A DNA stretch of 48,168 nt, taken from positions 1 through 48,168 of the forward strand of contig JAUWQD010000018.1 of assembly GCA_030611265.1 (NCBI GenBank). The letters are read 5' to 3'. Below are positions 9,483 to 41,456 of the stretch, one piece after another (positions within the stretch are counted from its first letter, which is position 1; every line of letters begins with the position of its first letter). The DNA comes from Methanosarcinaceae archaeon. GTDB lineage: Archaea; Halobacteriota; Methanosarcinia; Methanosarcinales; Methanosarcinaceae. The notes beneath the pieces are model-generated. The model saw nothing but the letters and a program-made list of their open reading frames with translations, was not told the DNA's origin and searched no databases. The position numbers and the translations under genes were made by a program.

Positions 9483-9519
9483 ATTTTATCACTCCTATGC
9501 ATTTTATTATCGGATTAGT

Positions 9520-9585
9520 CTATGCCGCCACGAGATTGTGCACCACCGCCTTCATCAATTTCGCACCGTCGGTGTATGATTGCTT
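9520..9585 (-). pseudogene. hsdS tail copy E (diverged)
   Basis: About 21 codons with a TAG: KQSYTDGAKLMKAVVHNL then VAA. It is the most diverged copy and appears older. An open frame runs through it from 9702, overlapping the RelE-like gene, but only the last third resembles HsdS. It lies just downstream of the toxin gene ending at 9608. Confidence 0.7.
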
Positions 9586-9607
9586 CAATATACCTTTGAT
9601 TTTAGTT

Positions 9608-9901
9608 TTACAAAATTTTCCCCAAATACTTTTCCAGATCAGTATAGTTGTTTTTCCGATCCAGTAAGCACACAAGAACAATATTGGGAGACAGTACTGC
9701 ATAAATAAGTCTAATTTCTTTATTTTGAAGGTTCAACCTGACCCTGAATACATTAGGTACAGTTTTAGTGTGAATCCTTTTAAACCTGAATGGATTTGAT
9801 GAGATCAAATCGATCTTTTCTTTTATCTGATCCTTGGATTTTTTATCAAGGTCTTCTATCTGCTCAATAAAAAATTCTGTAGCAACAAGTTCAAACTTCA
9901 T
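9608..9901 (-). CDS. RelE/ParE-family toxin
   Basis: A 97-residue protein with the RelE fold pattern: MKFELVATEFFIEQIEDLDKK, a basic region FRFKRIHTKTVPNVFRVRL, and a C-terminal LIYAVLSPNIVLVCLLDRK strand. RelE proteins cleave mRNA in the ribosome. The start codon overlaps the stop of the antitoxin gene by ATGA, the classical antitoxin-first arrangement. The pair forms one cassette between hsdS tails E and F. ParE-type gyrase poisoning is the alternative. Confidence 0.85.
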   Translation of the reverse strand: MKFELVATEFFIEQIEDLDKKSKDQIKEKIDLISSNPFRFKRIHTKTVPNVFRVRLNLQNKEIRLIYAVLSPNIVLVCLLDRKNNYTDLEKYLGKIL

Positions 9902-10158
9902 TGTAAAGCTTTGATGATATCATTTTGGTCTTTTATCTTGCCTTTCTCAATTGAAACTGACAATAATTTTTCAATCAGGTCAACCTCTTTGCCGGAGAAT
10001 GATTCATCATATTTGTTATCCCTGAATATCTTGTCTCTTATCGCCTCAAGAATAAATTCTTGGATGTTTCTATAACCATAATTATCTACATACTGTTCAG
10101 TAGCTAATTGTAATTTGGAAGGCAAACGAAGATTTATCTGCGGATTTGCATGAGTCAT
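9898..10158 (-). CDS. Ribbon-helix-helix antitoxin
   Basis: An 86-residue protein from the ATG at 10158 (the frame is open to 10254, but those residues are not conserved-looking and overlap the promoter). INLRLPSKLQLATEQYV then GYRNIQEFILEAIRD is the ribbon-helix-helix signature; the acidic C-terminus would cover the toxin. It likely represses its own promoter; TTAAATACC at about 10186-10194 is the probable TATA box, and the mRNA leader would be short. Confidence 0.85.
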   Translation of the reverse strand: MTHANPQINLRLPSKLQLATEQYVDNYGYRNIQEFILEAIRDKIFRDNKYDESFSGKEVDLIEKLLSVSIEKGKIKDQNDIIKALQ

Positions 10159-10246
10159 AATAAATACTAATGTGTATTTATTGGTATTTAATGGTATCTT
10201 TTGCTTATTGAGTAGCAGGAAATTGTCTTGCAAAAACTTACAATAA

Positions 10247-10331
10247 ATCTGCATTCATTTGTGTGTATCTGCGGTTCAATCAAAATATTAATCGCAGATG
10301 AACGCAGATACGCTACGCTACAGACTTGTGA
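10247..10331. repeat. Hairpin repeat after tail F
   Basis: It has arms ATCTGCGGTT (10267-10276) and ATCGCAGATGAACGCAGATA (10291-10310), then CGCTACGCTACAGACTTGTG leading to the stop codon of tail F. One arm has decayed (ATCGCAGAT instead of AACCGCAGAT). It is the border between the toxin-antitoxin cassette and tail F. Confidence 0.75.
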
Positions 10332-10404
10332 TTACGCACCAACCAACCCAGCCACCACTGCCTCCATCAATTTCGCGCCGTCGGTCTGCGATTGATTGAG
10401 TTTT
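10332..10404 (-). pseudogene. hsdS tail copy F
   Basis: 23 codons and a TAA: KLNQSQTDGAKLMEAVVAGL, then VGA. It starts at the same base as copy C, at AAAACTCAATC after GGTT. It stands about 100 bases downstream of the intact hsdS stop, so the operon ends in two consecutive tails. Confidence 0.88.
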
Positions 10405-10506
10405 AACCTCCTAACTACAAATCTGCGTTCATTTGCGCTTCAATTAAAAAAAATAACCGCAGATGAACGCGAATAAACGCAAATGCGCTACGCGACGGAC
10501 TTGTGA
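10405..10506. repeat. Hairpin repeat between hsdS and tail F
   Basis: Arms AAATCTGCGTTCATTTGCGC (10419-10438) and GCAGATGAACGCGAATAAAC (10459-10478) with CGCAAATGCG flank a loop with eight consecutive A bases. On the minus strand, directly after the hsdS stop, it reads as a long imperfect hairpin with an interior T-run, so it may also terminate the operon. The family is the same as at 8885-8972 and, outside the island, at 28554-28706. Confidence 0.8.
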
Positions 10507-12213
10507 TTACGCACCAACCAGCCCAGCTACTACCGCCACCATCAATCTCACGCCGTCGGTCTGTGATTGATTGAGTTTTGCTTCGAGTTCGTCGCAGAGT
10601 GCCATGAGCTGGTCAACTTTGGAGACGATGCGGCGCTGTTCTTCGAGTGGAGCCAATGGAACCAAATGATTTTTAATTGTAGACAAATTTAACTCGATCT
10701 GATTTGTTGTTCCTGAAGCCATCTCTTCTATTTCATTTTGAATAATTGGGCTAGCAATCCAGCAGTAGATAAAACGGCTATTAAGCAAAATAGGCCGAAC
10801 AATTGTTACATGAGAATCAGCAACAACTTTATCATGTGAATTATCTTCATGAACATAAGCATTAACTCGTCCAATCGTTCCTGTACCTGTTGAATTCCAA
10901 AGGAGATCACCAGTACGCAGGAAGCGCTCTTCATTATACTTTTCTAGTGCAGAAGGAGAAATAAATCTGGCTCTATCTAACTTGAAACCATCCCATTGAA
11001 TACACTTTTGAGATATTACTGGAATATCACTTTTTTCAACGTATTTTGGACCTTTTCCCCTTTGGATATAAGAGCAAATATCATCAAACCTAGCCCAATG
11101 CCATCCAACTGGCAATTCAAAATAGATTTCATCTTCAATAACTGGGGGCAATGGCTTCAATTTCTTAGCATTCTTCCCTTTCTCAACCTTAATCCTCTCC
11201 AACAACACCGCCGCAGGCTCATCATTCGGATCCTGCCGCACAAGTTTCCCCTGCACCGCCAGTTGCAATATCGCTTTCCTCAACTCGCCCACGGTTTCGG
11301 GATTGTCATAGAGCAGGTCGAAATTATCACAAACACGCTGCCAGTGGTTAGCGAATTCGGCAGGCTCGTGGGCGGTCAGCAGTTTGTCAAGCGCGGCGCT
11401 GTTGAGGCGCAGGCGGGTTTCCTGCTTTTTCTGCTGTCGGGCTTCAAGCTCGTCGCAGAGTGGCATGAGTTGTTTAAGTCTGGTGACGATACGACGTTGT
11501 TCATTAGGAGGGGGGAGTGCCACTAATAGATTTCCTATTATTTTCATATTCAATCCCCTTCTCTGTTTATGACCAGTTATGTTTCTAATATTCATATAAT
11601 TCGATTTTAAATATAAAAATAAATATTCCGGAACAAAATATTCGTCATTTTTTGAAATCATCGCAACCAGAGATTGATTGCATGCGGCATCGATTCTCAA
11701 CATTGCGACTGTCCCTCTGGTTTTCCCTTGCCCATTTAATGCTATTAAAACAGAATCAACAGGTAATATTTTGCAATTAGAATCATTTAAACCTTTTTCA
11801 GTAATTCTCCCATCGCATTCGAAAATTTCTCCTTTATTAACATCTCCAGATTTTAACCATCTTATACTTCCATCCCAATAATCTGATTTTCTTGTGCTTG
11901 GTGTTGCTCCAGTTTTGAGAGAAAAAATAGATCCCAACCTAACCCATTTCCATCCACCTGGAGCTTCATAAGGAATCTCATTTTCATTGATGGAATTGAA
12001 ACCTTTTTCAGTTTTGATTTTCTTTTCCTTAACCAATTCCTCTCTCTCAGCCTTAATCTTCTCCAACAACACCGCCGCAGGCTCATCATTCGGGTCTTGT
12101 GGCACAAGCTTCCCCTGCACTGCCAGTTGCAAAATAAGCTCGCGCAGTTTCTGAACACCATTTGGCGTATCAGCAAGCAGTCCGAATTTATCAAAAAACG
12201 TCTCAGGGTTCAT
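10507..12213 (-). CDS. hsdS: Type I restriction enzyme, specificity subunit
   Basis: A 568-residue DNA-recognition subunit that directs the HsdM methylase and HsdR nuclease. There are two target-recognition halves. Each begins with a near-identical block (AILQLAVQGKLV, then QDPNDEPAAVLLE, near residues 27-52 and about 315-340), followed by a variable domain, and ends with EQRRIV and CDELEA (about 238-257 and 532-552), the coiled-coil spacer. The repeated halves are typical and allow domain exchange by recombination. ATG overlaps the hsdM stop (ATGA). Its last 14-41 codons recur six times downstream. No frameshift is present, so the enzyme is probably functional. Confidence 0.95.
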   Translation of the reverse strand: MNPETFFDKFGLLADTPNGVQKLRELILQLAVQGKLVPQDPNDEPAAVLLEKIKAEREELVKEKKIKTEKGFNSINENEIPYEAPGGWKWVRLGSIFSLKTGATPSTRKSDYWDGSIRWLKSGDVNKGEIFECDGRITEKGLNDSNCKILPVDSVLIALNGQGKTRGTVAMLRIDAACNQSLVAMISKNDEYFVPEYLFLYLKSNYMNIRNITGHKQRRGLNMKIIGNLLVALPPPNEQRRIVTRLKQLMPLCDELEARQQKKQETRLRLNSAALDKLLTAHEPAEFANHWQRVCDNFDLLYDNPETVGELRKAILQLAVQGKLVRQDPNDEPAAVLLERIKVEKGKNAKKLKPLPPVIEDEIYFELPVGWHWARFDDICSYIQRGKGPKYVEKSDIPVISQKCIQWDGFKLDRARFISPSALEKYNEERFLRTGDLLWNSTGTGTIGRVNAYVHEDNSHDKVVADSHVTIVRPILLNSRFIYCWIASPIIQNEIEEMASGTTNQIELNLSTIKNHLVPLAPLEEQRRIVSKVDQLMALCDELEAKLNQSQTDGVRLMVAVVAGLVGA

Positions 12214-35600: not shown

Positions 35601-35805
35601 GTATCTTACGTAAATAATGATATTAGTATCTTTATATTTGCGGGACTGGCGATGAGGGCGGAAAATAGATGTGAATGACATAAAAACAGCATCTAAAGGC
35701 ATCTTGCAGCCATCCATTAAAGATACTGTTCGATAAACCAATCAAAACAAGTACAATGATGATCCTTGAATCTTAATAGTTTAAGATTACTTATTCATCA
35801 ATTGT

Positions 35806-35928
35806 TTATTGGACGGACGTCACACGTCCACATTGTCTACAATGTTGTAGAATATTCAAACCAATTTTCTGCCGCTTAAGCGGTGATTTACATTTTTTGC
35901 AGATGTTTTTGGCAACTTTTTCCATCAT
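35806..35928 (-). CDS. Mini zinc-ribbon protein, 40 residues (copy 1B)
   Basis: The peptide MMEKVAKNICKKCKSPLKRQ continues KIGLNILQHCRQCGRVTSVQ. Two CxxC pairs (CKKC at 10-13, CRQC at 30-33) spaced by 16 residues form a rubredoxin- or ribbon-like zinc knuckle. GAGGTGAGG stands before the ATG, and the gene starts 7 nt after copy 1A. It is too short to be picked up by many annotations, but an equally intact copy exists at 36621-36743, which supports a real protein. Small zinc ribbons of this type may bind nucleic acid or a protein partner. Confidence 0.75.
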   Translation of the reverse strand: MMEKVAKNICKKCKSPLKRQKIGLNILQHCRQCGRVTSVQ

Positions 35929-35935
35929 CCTCACC

Positions 35936-36073
35936 TCATGCGAAAATCATTATCGAATCAAACCTTGCAGTTCCTTTTTTGGTCCAATATTTACAGACAC
36001 TACAAACCTGCATGTTGTTGCTGTTCATTTCTAATTCAGAATCACATTTTGGGCATTTTTTCAGTGTATCCAT
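35936..36073 (-). CDS. Mini zinc-ribbon protein, 45 residues (copy 1A)
   Basis: The protein MDTLKKCPKCDSELEMNSNN continues MQVCSVCKYWTKKGTARFDS, then IMIFA. CPKC (7-10) and CSVC (24-27) form one zinc ribbon. A strong GGAGG precedes the ATG at 36073. The partner gene 1B follows after 7 nt, so the two are likely translated together. A TATA-like CATTTAAAATG near 36131-36141 is plausible, with an inverted repeat TTACTTT/AAAGTAA next to it. A near-identical pair lies about 815 bp away. Confidence 0.75.
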   Translation of the reverse strand: MDTLKKCPKCDSELEMNSNNMQVCSVCKYWTKKGTARFDSIMIFA

Positions 36074-36261
36074 GTTTTAATTCCTCCTAAATTTGGATGT
36101 ACCAGATTTACTTTTGAAATTGAAAGTAAGCATTTTAAATGTTGTACTGTTTTTATTAACAGTTACACATTGTCACAATTGCAGATATACATTTCGGCTT
36201 ATTTTTAGATGTGCCAACATGGGCAAAGATAATATGGAAATTATCAGGCTTTAATATTTTA

Positions 36262-36438
36262 TCAGCGTCTGCCAATGACATCCTTTACCAAATAGTACGG
36301 CAAACACGGTGCAACCCATTTCATGAACGATAGATACTCCAGCCTGCCTGTAGCGAGGTGAATGAACTTGTTTAACAGTGATCCATTGTTGACCAGTATC
36401 CTCGATGATAGATTCGAATAGCTATAGAACAAATTTGA
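36262..36438 (-). pseudogene. Decayed copy of the 3' end of the reductase gene
   Basis: About 58 codons and a TGA give FYSYSNLSSRILVNNGSLLN, then KFIHLATGRLEYLSFMKWVA and PCLPYYLVKDVIGRR. This matches the last part of the reductase at 37226-38386 (FYRFPNLSYRILVDNEPLLN, then KFIHLATGRPSYFSFIKWIA) with many substitutions. There is no upstream part and no start. It shows the duplication of the reductase tail together with the zinc-ribbon pair. Confidence 0.85.
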
Positions 36439-36620
36439 AAGTACGAGAAAATTCTCCCTACGGTCGAATTAACTCGCACTATATATTTATAAAATATATA
36501 TTATGAAAAAATATAACAACGGTATCTTGCAGTTACGTATTAAAGATACCGTTCGGCAAACCAATCAAACAAAATACAATGATGACACTTGAATCTTAAG
36601 ATAACTTATTCACCAATCGT

Positions 36621-36743
36621 TTATTGTACGGACGTTACACGTCCGCAGTGTCTGCAATGGTTTAGAACATTTAATCCAATTACCTGTCGCTTAAACGGTG
36701 TTTTACATTTTTTGCAGATGTTTTTGGCAACTTTTTCCATCAT
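36621..36743 (-). CDS. Mini zinc-ribbon protein, 40 residues (copy 2B)
   Basis: MMEKVAKNICKKCKTPFKRQ then VIGLNVLNHCRHCGRVTSVQ, with CKKC and CRHC pairs. It is the counterpart of 35806-35928; six residues differ, all outside the cysteines. The first half of the nucleotide sequence is identical between copies, while the second half has many silent and replacement changes, which points to selection on the protein and to local gene conversion. Confidence 0.75.
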   Translation of the reverse strand: MMEKVAKNICKKCKTPFKRQVIGLNVLNHCRHCGRVTSVQ

Positions 36744-36750
36744 CCTCACC

Positions 36751-36888
36751 TCATGCGAAAATCATTATCGAATCAAACCTTGCAGTTCCTTTTTTGGTCC
36801 AATATTTACAAACCCCACAGACCTGCACATTGTCACTGTTCATTTTCAATTCCGAATTGCATTTTGGGCATTTTTTCAATATATCCAT
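36751..36888 (-). CDS. Mini zinc-ribbon protein, 45 residues (copy 2A)
   Basis: MDILKKCPKCNSELKMNSDN then VQVCGVCKYWTKKGTARFDS and IMIFA, with CPKC and CGVC pairs. It is the counterpart of 35936-36073 and begins 7 nt before copy 2B. The ribosome-binding site is weaker (GAGTGGA). It lies downstream of the reductase gene, about 340 bp away, and may be read from the same or its own promoter. Confidence 0.75.
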   Translation of the reverse strand: MDILKKCPKCNSELKMNSDNVQVCGVCKYWTKKGTARFDSIMIFA

Positions 36889-37225
36889 ATTTCCACTCTC
36901 CATTATTTATGCGAACACATCGTTTGAAGATTACTTACCGTATTAGTGATGCATCTGATTGGACACTATAATAAGGCCAATTGCACAATACAGACGTAAC
37001 TCAAACCTATGCGTGTTTTACTCCCCAACACGCTGAGTTTGCGTAGTGATTCGAAACAGTAGTTTCAAATTACTACTTATTAATAAGCACCATTTCATAT
37101 AAATTTTGTCATGGATTTTTATAGATTTAATTGTTATAAAAATCGTAAAAAATTGTTTTCAACTTCAATTTTTCAGTTTATACGCCGCACATGCAGTTCT
37201 TATTTACACAGTGCGTGCATAAGTT
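36889..37225. other. Region between the reductase and zinc-ribbon copy 2
   Basis: No gene is seen. Nested inverted repeats, AACTCA (36998-37003)/TGAGTT (37034-37039) and CGTGTT (37012-37017)/AACACG (37027-37032), form a stem with a TTACTCCCC loop. A second stem AGTAGT/ACTACT follows at about 37056-37075. They could process or terminate the reductase transcript. Confidence 0.5.
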
Positions 37226-38603: not shown

Positions 38604-38624
38604 CACAGTATCCAATCCTCATAC

Positions 38625-40085
38625 ATGGCATTGAACAAAATTTTTGTCGCCGCCATGCTGATGATCGTGGTCTTTGCATTCGCAATCTCGCCAGGTCAGC
38701 AGGATGCGGGGGCAGATGGAAAAAACATTGTAACGCATTCGAGCATTGTTACAGTATCAGACCCATACAGCGCACTTTTCATGATAGCAACTGCACAAGG
38801 GGGGATGTCTGAAGATACCGAGGTCACTGTGTATAATCAGGACCTTGCTCTTGTAAAGGAAAAGAGGAACGTGGACCTTGATGCAGGATACAACAGCATT
38901 GAGTATGTTGATGTCGCATCCCGCATCGATCCTACCTCTGTCATGTTCGAGGATACAAGATATCCCAGCACTTTCGTTGCAGAGCAGAATTACCAATACG
39001 ACCTTGTGAGCAGCAGTAAACTGCTTGACAAGTATCTTGACAAGGAAATATCGGCAACCGATAGTGATGGTACGACATATACGGGAACACTTTTGAGCCA
39101 CGGAAACGGGATTGTTCTGAAAACCGACGGTGGTGTGGTATCATTGACCGATATCTCCAAGATAGAGTATCCTGATGCTGCCGGATTGTTGACTAAACCG
39201 ACACTTGTTTGGCAGGTATATTCACCTGTTGCAGGTAGCCGTGATGTGCTGACATCATACCTGACAGGCGGAATGTCATGGAAAGCGAACTACATTGTGA
39301 AGACAAATGCAGCAGATACAAAAGCGGATGTGACTGCATGGGTATCTATTGATAACAAGGCAGGTACGTCATTCAATAATGCAAAACTCAAACTGGTGGC
39401 GGGAGATATACACCGCGTGTATGACCGACCGGTTCAATTTGCAGGCTTTATGTATGATATGGATTCCGTTGCCAAGGCTGTGCCTGAAAGTTTTGCAGAG
39501 GAGAGCCTGTTTGAGTACCACCTCTATACTCTGGATCGAACTACGACCCTGAAGAACAATGAGATCAAACAGATATCACTGCTCAGTGCCGATGATGTGC
39601 CTGTGAACAAGGAATTCATTTTCGATGGTACGCAGGATAGTAAGGTGCGTGTGGTTCTGGAGATGACTAATTCAGAGGATATGGGACTTGGCATGCCGCT
39701 TCCCAAAGGTGTTGTGAGGGTATATAAGGCAGACACTTCAGGACAACTTCAGTTCCTTGGTGAGGATGAGATTGACCACACCGCAAAGGATGAAGATGTG
39801 CGCGTGTTTGTCGGAAATGCATTTGATATTACGGGTGAGCGAAAGCAGACCGATTATCAGAGAATTGGTGAGGATGTCTACAGGGTGAGCAATGAGATTA
39901 CGATCAAGAATCACAAGTCGGAGTCGATTGATATTGTTGTTGTAGAACATCTTTATGGTGACTGGGATATCATTACAACATCCGATACTTACACAAAGAA
40001 GGATTCACGCACTATCGAGTATAGGATCTCGGTGCCTGCTGATGGAACAAAAACAGTGTCGTATACAGTAGAGTACACGTATTAA
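38625..40085 (+). CDS. Secreted DUF4139-domain protein
   Basis: A 486-residue exported protein. A signal peptide (NKIFVAAMLMIVVFAFAISP, cleaved near GADG) is followed by an N-terminal beta domain (VTVYNQDLALVKEKRNVDL, then GYNSIEYVDVASRIDPTSV, the start of DUF4140-like sequences) and a DUF4139 region (VWQVYSPVAGSRDVLTSYLT, then GGMSWKANYI). The last part resembles a beta-sandwich (ISVPADGTKTVSYTVEYTY). The family is widespread in bacteria and archaea and its role is unknown, probably at the surface. It ends at a clear terminator. Confidence 0.88.
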   Translation: MALNKIFVAAMLMIVVFAFAISPGQQDAGADGKNIVTHSSIVTVSDPYSALFMIATAQGGMSEDTEVTVYNQDLALVKEKRNVDLDAGYNSIEYVDVASRIDPTSVMFEDTRYPSTFVAEQNYQYDLVSSSKLLDKYLDKEISATDSDGTTYTGTLLSHGNGIVLKTDGGVVSLTDISKIEYPDAAGLLTKPTLVWQVYSPVAGSRDVLTSYLTGGMSWKANYIVKTNAADTKADVTAWVSIDNKAGTSFNNAKLKLVAGDIHRVYDRPVQFAGFMYDMDSVAKAVPESFAEESLFEYHLYTLDRTTTLKNNEIKQISLLSADDVPVNKEFIFDGTQDSKVRVVLEMTNSEDMGLGMPLPKGVVRVYKADTSGQLQFLGEDEIDHTAKDEDVRVFVGNAFDITGERKQTDYQRIGEDVYRVSNEITIKNHKSESIDIVVVEHLYGDWDIITTSDTYTKKDSRTIEYRISVPADGTKTVSYTVEYTY

Positions 40086-40175: not shown

Positions 40176-40658
40176 TTATTTTGTAGGTGCCATGTACGCA
40201 ACATCGATTGATGTTAACAGTGTACTATTCGAACTGTCACGACCCACCATTGTCCCGGAAAATATTAAATTTTTTGAGCCGATCTTTATCTCATCACCAA
40301 TCTCAAAATCGTACGTATCCCCGAATATGTGCAATTTGCCCATGTTTGAAGAAGTTATTATTAGTTGATTCAACAATGCTCCTGTATTTTCTTCATTTTT
40401 ATACACGGGAATATCCATCTTCGATTTTTCGAAGTTGAGGACTTCATATGCCAGACAGGTTGGAACATAACCACCACACGGTCCTGTACGACTTTCAACC
40501 AATCCCAAAACCCTGAGGTTTTGCATCTGGTTACGAATTGTTCCTTCTGACCTTTTCACTGCTTTGGCAATTTCACTACTTTTCAAAGCCAATCCGCTCA
40601 TTCTATGGGTACGAACCACTGTTGAAATAATGTCTTTTTGTACAGGCCTTAAATCGAT
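40176..40658 (-). CDS. Winged-helix transcription regulator, apparent ATC start
   Basis: About 160 residues. The N-terminal winged helix has SSEIAKAVKRSEGTIRNQMQ then NLRVLGLVESRTGPCGGYVP, typical of Methanosarcinales regulators that in relatives carry CBS domains. The C-terminal part (about 95-160) is beta-rich and not recognised. The first ordinary start in frame is GTG at 40619, but that omits IDLRPVQKDIIST, the conserved first helix. Directly in front of that segment stands GGAGGTGA (40663-40670) with ideal spacing to ATC at 40658. I therefore place the start at ATC, with the GTG as alternative. It converges on the DUF4139 gene. Confidence 0.7.
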   Translation of the reverse strand: MDLRPVQKDIISTVVRTHRMSGLALKSSEIAKAVKRSEGTIRNQMQNLRVLGLVESRTGPCGGYVPTCLAYEVLNFEKSKMDIPVYKNEENTGALLNQLIITSSNMGKLHIFGDTYDFEIGDEIKIGSKNLIFSGTMVGRDSSNSTLLTSIDVAYMAPTK

Positions 40659-40670
40659 TTTATCACCTCC

Positions 40671-40966
40671 GTTTGTGTTACTAATTTATACAATCGTATT
40701 ACTAGTTAATAAACTTATCTAATGTTGTGCTATTATAGAGGGTAAACAACAGTTGTTTCAGCCGGAGTATTGACAATAAACACACATATTGCAAAGTACA
40801 AGATAGGGATATCTATCAAATAAAAATAATAACCCATGGAGAAGGCAGAATTATATCTGCCCTCACCATTTGTACTCCCCAACCCGCATATAGTTGTTTA
40901 TACGTACCACACGTATACACCATCATAGACTTGCCCCCATATATATGTTCTGAGTATTTTGAAAAT
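40671..40966. other. Intergenic region between the regulator and the DedA gene
   Basis: No gene is seen. It contains the regulator's TATA-like TGTATAAATT (40682-40691, minus strand), a palindrome-like ACAACAGTTGTTTC near 40747-40760, and CGTACCACACGTATAC near 40903-40918. The DNA is AT-rich. Confidence 0.45.
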
Positions 40967-40978: not shown

Positions 40979-41000
40979 TGTGATAGATTGATGTAACCAC

Positions 41001-41456
41001 ATGTTCGAACTTGTAAATTCCCTGATATCAGATTATGGATACTTTAGCCTTTTTTTAACCAGTTTTCTGGCATCCACAATCCTGCCATTCGGCTCGGAAG
41101 GTGTGGTTGTACTGCTTATATATTCTGATTTTAATCTGTTCACGGTTGTGATGGTTGCAACTGTGGGCAACTATCTTGGTGCTTGTACAACTTACTACAT
41201 TGGACTGAAGGGACGCAGCGAAATTATTGATAAATACCTGTCAATTTCACATGAGCAACTTACAAAAACCGACAGATTGTTCCAAAAATACGGGGTTTAT
41301 GTGTTGCTATTTACATGGGTGCCAGGAATAGGCGATGTAATTACTGCGGCTGGTGGGCTACTGAAACTTCCATTTAAGATATTTTCGATCTATGTTTTTG
41401 CAGGCAAGTTCGCACGTTATCTTGCGGTTGCCTATTTAACTGCCCAACTGTTGTAA
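41001..41456 (+). CDS. DedA/YqaA-like membrane protein
   Basis: A 151-residue member of the VTT/DedA superfamily (YqaA branch). It has membrane helices at about 15-45, 50-70, 100-120 and 130-150, the motif FLASTILPFGSEGVV near the N-terminus and the characteristic WVPGIGDVITAAGG (about 106-119), where family members have a re-entrant loop with Gly and Pro. YqaA-type proteins are short. They are thought to act in lipid or ion transport; the function here is not known. Confidence 0.85.
   Translation: MFELVNSLISDYGYFSLFLTSFLASTILPFGSEGVVVLLIYSDFNLFTVVMVATVGNYLGACTTYYIGLKGRSEIIDKYLSISHEQLTKTDRLFQKYGVYVLLFTWVPGIGDVITAAGGLLKLPFKIFSIYVFAGKFARYLAVAYLTAQLL

Follow-up and report, generated by a model that had tools for sequence, protein, structure and literature searches.

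The stretch of DNA analysed here (the window) comprises 48,168 nucleotides of a contig from a Methanosarcinaceae archaeon, whose genome belongs to the ANME-3 genus of methane-eating archaea. On its minus strand, a frame of 160 codons that opens with ATC and is closed by TAA at 40178-40176 would encode a short regulator (Table 1). It is flanked by two plus-strand genes, one convergent with it (38604-40085; presumably DUF4139-like) and one divergent from it (40992-41456; which we take to be DedA-like). Both neighbours are kept in genomes G001 and G004, and neither was matched in the 10.8-kb contig of G006 that carries the regulator. Elsewhere on the minus strand of the window, at approximately 35800-36075 and 36620-36890, are two copies of paired tiny ORFs resembling CxxC zinc ribbons; near 36260-36370 lies a stray 3′ fragment of an oxidoreductase gene, and the whole reads as a local duplication.

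Table 1. Positions of the regulator gene and of the features in and before it in the window. L036, L037 and L038 are the orthologues in three sister genomes.
Feature	Position	Strand	Remarks
Regulator ORF from ATC, 160 codons plus stop	40176..40658	-	PF03444 winged helix and middle domain, without CBS
ATC, proposed start codon	40656..40658	-	Homologous codon is ATC (L036), GTC (L037), ATA (L038)
GGAGGTGAT, perfect 9-base Shine-Dalgarno (SD) sequence	40662..40670	-	GGAGGTG unchanged in 4 of 4 orthologues
GTG, codon 14, first canonical start	40617..40619	-	GTT, GTA and GTA in the other three orthologues
TAGTAACAC, second repeat copy, putative operator box	40675..40683	-	Upstream of the SD
TAGTAATAC, first repeat copy, putative operator box	40696..40704	-	21 bp apart from the second copy
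TTTATTAA, possible TATA box, 48 bases before ATC	40706..40713	-	TTAT(T/C)AA kept in orthologues

The regulator matches PF03444 (HrcA_DNA-bdg) with 95.7 bits (E 1.3e-27), well above the gathering cut-off of 21. Against TIGR00331, the model for the HrcA heat-shock repressor, it reaches 17.2 bits where the NCBIfam cut-off is 197.2, and it is therefore not HrcA proper. Beyond this domain, the protein is similar to the middle portion of a longer relative. Full-length relatives of the same order possess the same winged helix and middle domain (approximately 40% identical) and the same start position, and they extend into domains which we read as CBS, an arrangement presumably of the HTH-CBS type. 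No CBS domain is present in the regulator, its ORF stopping after 160 codons and giving no Pfam CBS match up to an E value of 1. Phage and viral searches revealed no relative of the regulator. A predicted structure, calculated with four sequences, was discarded because of its mean pLDDT of 35.8.

The first 80 residues of a full-length relative find a match in 174 of the 185 genomes of the order, and the short form occurs in four of the seven genomes of the ANME-3 genus. Three of these four carry the isolate names HMMV, HMMV2 and CSMAG_471; the first two correspond to the pair of ANME-3 (Ca. Methanovorans) genomes of PMC9012536.

Upstream of the ATC the frame is closed by a TAA, and no ATG, GTG or TTG lies between the two in the window. 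Downstream, the GTG at 40619 is followed by an ATG at 40601 (codon 20) as the next canonical start. An earlier note on this DNA had proposed that translation begins at the ATC, on the grounds of a perfect and correctly placed SD sequence, and such an SD was confirmed: the match spans nine bases, and seven bases separate the end of GGAGG from the ATC. The 8-mer GGAGGTGA runs from 40670 to 40663 and is followed by TAAA and then by ATC. It is found once in the window, where shuffled sequences contain it 1.03 times on average; since the 8-mer alone is thus expected about once per window, the argument must rest on the placement of the SD and on the relatives. The residues after the ATC, "IDLRPVQKDIIST," had been likened to the N-terminus of related regulators, and they align without gaps to MELTPIQKDIL of the relatives. 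The further claim, that a start at the GTG would remove a conserved N-terminus, holds as well, in that the match to PF03444 begins at position 2 of the profile. RNA folding gave no structure at the start region beyond that of shuffled sequences (z scores of 0.11, 0.93, -0.68 and -0.57).

The sequence ATCACCTCC, contained in the 3′-end of 16S rRNA in sister genome G004, is the exact complement of GGAGGTGAT. A pattern search found this anti-SD exactly in that one genome among the seven of the genus, whereas six genomes, including that of the window, gave no match to the 16S pattern. For comparison, 353 kb of the window's own genome, which gave 280 long ORFs, were scored for the SD before canonical starts, allowing a spacing of 4-11 and any canonical start within the first 60 codons. 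Most SDs in this set are short. Seven bases match in 10 of these ORFs, eight in one and nine in none, so that the 9-base match of the regulator is longer than the best canonical-start SD in the whole set. The same ORFs were screened for ATA, ATC, ATT, CTG, GTC and ACG, located no later than the first canonical start and preceded by an SD of at least six bases. Three qualified: the regulator (nine bases), an ORF with ACG followed directly by ATG, and one with CTG and an ATG 15 codons on; eleven weaker matches of five bases were also listed. These figures replace looser counts of an SD plus a codon (ATG 22, ATC 7, TTG 7, ATA 5 and many others), which had included internal sites. At L079 an 8-base SD match, AGGTGATC, precedes a CTG that lies 15 codons ahead of the first ATG of a 423-codon ORF (approximately 9492-10760, plus strand), possibly by chance.

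The four ANME-3 orthologues come from four genome records and differ pairwise at 22 to 100 of 477 bases. At the codon equivalent to the start they read ATC, ATC, GTC and ATA. A non-canonical codon thus stands at the homologous start in 4/4, and in 4/4 a GGAGGTG precedes it with seven bases from GGAGG to the codon. Since no normal start is present here in the three sister genomes either, this looks like a kept feature rather than a sequencing slip. In the L036 gene the first 19 codons are free of canonical starts. In L037 and L038, where the codon is GTC and ATA, an ATG follows three codons on, at codon 4, and the non-canonical start is accordingly less certain in these two genomes.

The wider family was sampled at 139 loci, which represent part of its members. 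Six were without a match and 27 identical ones were collapsed, leaving 106 distinct start regions, in which the start codon is ATG in 91, GTG in seven, TTG in one, ATA in three, ATC in two, GTC in one and ACG in one. Aligning the relatives at this codon, as the earlier note had advised, places the family start at the same position in 99 of the 106 regions; judging from this alignment, the ATC occupies the start position of the whole family. Seven regions deviate: the four short forms of ANME-3, two full-length forms from g25, another genus of the order, and one ACG. Among the full-length relatives read, a non-canonical codon at this position is confined to three: the ATA, ATA of g25 and the ACG. 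The latter, in L029 (G027:C111), was not counted, since a GTG three codons before it and a TTG two codons after it are usable. In genus g25, ATA occupies the start of the full-length relative in 2/2 genomes (L016 in G052; L088 in G070), no canonical start follows before codon 29, and 80 of 870 bases distinguish the two genes. Both ATA codons stand behind an SD-like GGGGATGAT. As a control we examined a GTPase-like gene that neighbours the full-length relatives, which begins with ATG in 41/41 distinct sequences (the gene was present at 58 of 99 loci, of which 17 were identical to others; all are from the window's family and none from g25).

In a tree of 103 rows the ANME-3 short forms make up one clade with a support of 100/100 and a long stem, located within the window's family, and g25 is placed apart from it. 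From this separation we surmise that the two non-canonical cases most likely arose independently. Within the group of g25 an ATG row (L103, G048) stands beside L016 with weak support, such that one change and two changes are indistinguishable there. Row L161 is labelled non-canonical despite an upstream GTG, and its branch is very long; that ANME-3 and g25 are separate does not hinge on this row. A phylum-wide hunt for ATA, ATC or ATT before the N-terminal motif of the family, made with an exact pattern that misses divergent members and on a sample that did not include the g25 genomes, matched one of 392 genomes. This single candidate was dropped, having an in-frame GTG three codons upstream behind what reads as an SD of its own.

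Translation could instead begin at a canonical codon farther on, namely at codon 14 (GTG) or 20 (ATG) where the family start codon is ATC, and at codon 4 (ATG) where it is GTC or ATA, with the front part serving as leader. We consider this unlikely, even though L037 and L038 do possess the ATG at codon 4 and the spacing between SD and start looks loose in the genus. In the aIF1 gene, for instance, the ATG lies 12 bases after GGAGG, and the SD spacing is not tight. A codon-4 start in L037 or L038 would put GGAGG 16 bases away, a distance which the histogram of ATG-to-SD spacings (539 kb from several genomes; 34 at 8, 31 at 9, 30 at 12 and 34 at 17) is too noisy to exclude. Against the GTG of the window speaks its replacement by GTT in L036, which disfavours the one normal start that the earlier note had named as a competitor. 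The strong SD lies 46 bases away from this GTG, and by eye the 24 bases before the GTG and before the ATG of the window contain no SD. A start at codon 14 or codon 20 would also remove the beginning of the PF03444 domain. Finally, codons 5-13, which would go untranslated with a start at the GTG, vary across the four orthologues at third positions only (all four variable sites), which fits a coding sequence and not a leader; at codons 2, 4 and 14-19 changes occur also at first or second positions.

A second alternative is an out-of-frame start at the GTG within the SD itself (GGAG-GTG-ATA...), followed by a frameshift or by a stop and restart. Such a mini-frame opens in 4/4 orthologues, closing by eye after 5, 5, 5 and 3 sense codons, and in L037 it ends in TAATG. 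Its length is not kept in L038, however, and by eye the GTG has no SD in front and the mini-frame no slippery sequence, from which we regard this course of events as very improbable.

The two ATC genes are identical at 455 of 477 bases (22 differ; approximately 95% DNA identity), their dN/dS is 0.15, and one of 2000 neutral simulations was as conserved. The pair is thus under purifying selection without a canonical start at its head, which indicates that the protein is probably made and that an isolated error is unlikely. Least probable of all is that the ATC stands for an ATG misread in sequencing or assembly, or that it marks a decaying gene, for although at least three of the four orthologue genomes are metagenome-assembled, the second genome (L036) has the same ATC in a record of its own, the others read GTC and ATA, and the six pairs all have dN/dS values of 0.09-0.15.

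Initiation at the AUC is in our opinion well supported by the sequence: the orthologues, the family-wide alignment, the invariant SD and the purifying selection all favour the start put forward in the earlier note. We consider it likely that the product is a short ANME-3 regulator with an HrcA-type winged helix, and that ribosomes placed by the SD would begin its translation, at a presumably low level, on a near-cognate AUC. In such a scheme a full 9-base duplex of SD and anti-SD would place the ribosomes, and initiator Met-tRNA would start on AUC (AUC, GUC or AUA in the sister genomes), the strong SD compensating for the poor codon. On AUC the initiator tRNA would have one mismatch, at the third position. 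Protein output would presumably be low and sensitive to initiation factors, with aIF1 discriminating against the AUC start. The aEF1A mRNA of P. abyssi has the same GGAGGUGAU shortly ahead of its AUG (PMC6237735), a structure with it has a nine-nucleotide SD duplex with AUCACCUCC (PMC7531240), and aIF1 of Sulfolobus reportedly discriminates against non-canonical starts (PMC6237735, PMC8211752). An aIF1 (SUI1) gene is present in 7/7 genomes of the genus, and in 7/7 its first canonical codon is an ATG behind GGAGG.

The region before the SD contains two TAGTAAYAC boxes, a direct repeat 21 bp apart, which is kept in the orthologues together with TTAT(T/C)AA, the first box being altered in L038; farther upstream, L037 and L038 have largely different DNA. 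Within the 48-kb window the box sequence TAGTAAYAC is found in the upstream region of the regulator only. The pair would fit an operator through which the regulator might repress its own gene, and it may also be a duplicated promoter. The tentative reading of TTTATTAA as a TATA box follows the archaeal consensus, and a scan for sigma-type promoters was uninformative for an archaeon.

When seven genomes were searched for the two boxes with up to two mismatches, eight matches were obtained versus 11 for a reversed control; as the control matches as often, weak two-box matches mean nothing. Exact matches number four, three of them in orthologue leaders and one at a place in G003. A one-mismatch match in G001 is at the same kind of place as that in G003, before a 19-codon ORF. 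At these two places (L107:848-877 in G001; L165, G003:C204:434-463) the promoter and leader block of the regulator recurs nearly unchanged after an oxidoreductase gene, presumably geranylgeranyl-reductase-like. The block is followed by an SD and the 19-codon ORF MFGFE(Y/H)FHIISCLHCNIYK, upstream of small ORFs resembling CxxC zinc ribbons. A further one-mismatch match, L169 (G003:C185:1556-1585), has GGAGGTGA and ATG downstream on the other strand and may be due to chance.

If the AUC start is true, the retention of AUC, GUC or AUA throughout a genus, behind a full-length SD, in an archaeal transcription regulator would point to weak start codons being maintained in archaea as well, and it would offer a natural test of proofreading by aIF1. 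In practice, gene callers limited to ATG, GTG and TTG would clip the start of its DNA-binding domain. A description of an archaeal gene with an AUC, AUA or GUC start was not found in those parts of the open-licence literature that were available. Chloroplast genes with non-canonical starts are listed in PMC9845219, and PMC7897474 reports that in H. volcanii without KsgA/Dim1 the raised proteins are enriched for annotated non-AUG starts.

The closest parallels are bacterial. Few genes with a conserved non-canonical start are well characterised: PMC5472188 describes infC as a rare example, to which sigR is added. The start of infC is ATT in E. coli and ATC in Streptomyces, the latter being the codon of the regulator. 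As infC encodes a fidelity factor it autoregulates through its own codon, whereas the product of the ANME-3 gene is a DNA-binding protein; the aIF1 gene of ANME-3, with ATG as its first canonical codon in 7/7 genomes, does not resemble infC in this respect. The start of Streptomyces sigR is GTC in 32 of 34 genomes and GTT in two, behind a highly conserved AGGAGGTG. Like the ANME-3 gene, sigR encodes a transcription regulator, has a conserved non-canonical start that varies among non-canonical codons between species, and possesses a near-complete ribosome binding site (AGGAGGTG versus GGAGGTG here). Unlike it, sigR specifies a bacterial sigma factor for which repression by IF3 is experimental, and here the case is an archaeon with aIF1. 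The strong SD, the presence of aIF1 and the likeness to sigR lead us to infer a weak, fidelity-sensitive initiation, and by analogy with infC and sigR, together with the conserved repeat pair upstream, expression of the regulator may be low or autoregulated. More doubtful is a wider proposal, in which near-cognate starts would be a regulatory device in this order, the ANME-3 regulator and separately the g25 relative being held low by aIF1-type proofreading, such that a change in fidelity or ribosome supply might raise the regulator, in the manner of IF3 with infC and sigR in bacteria.
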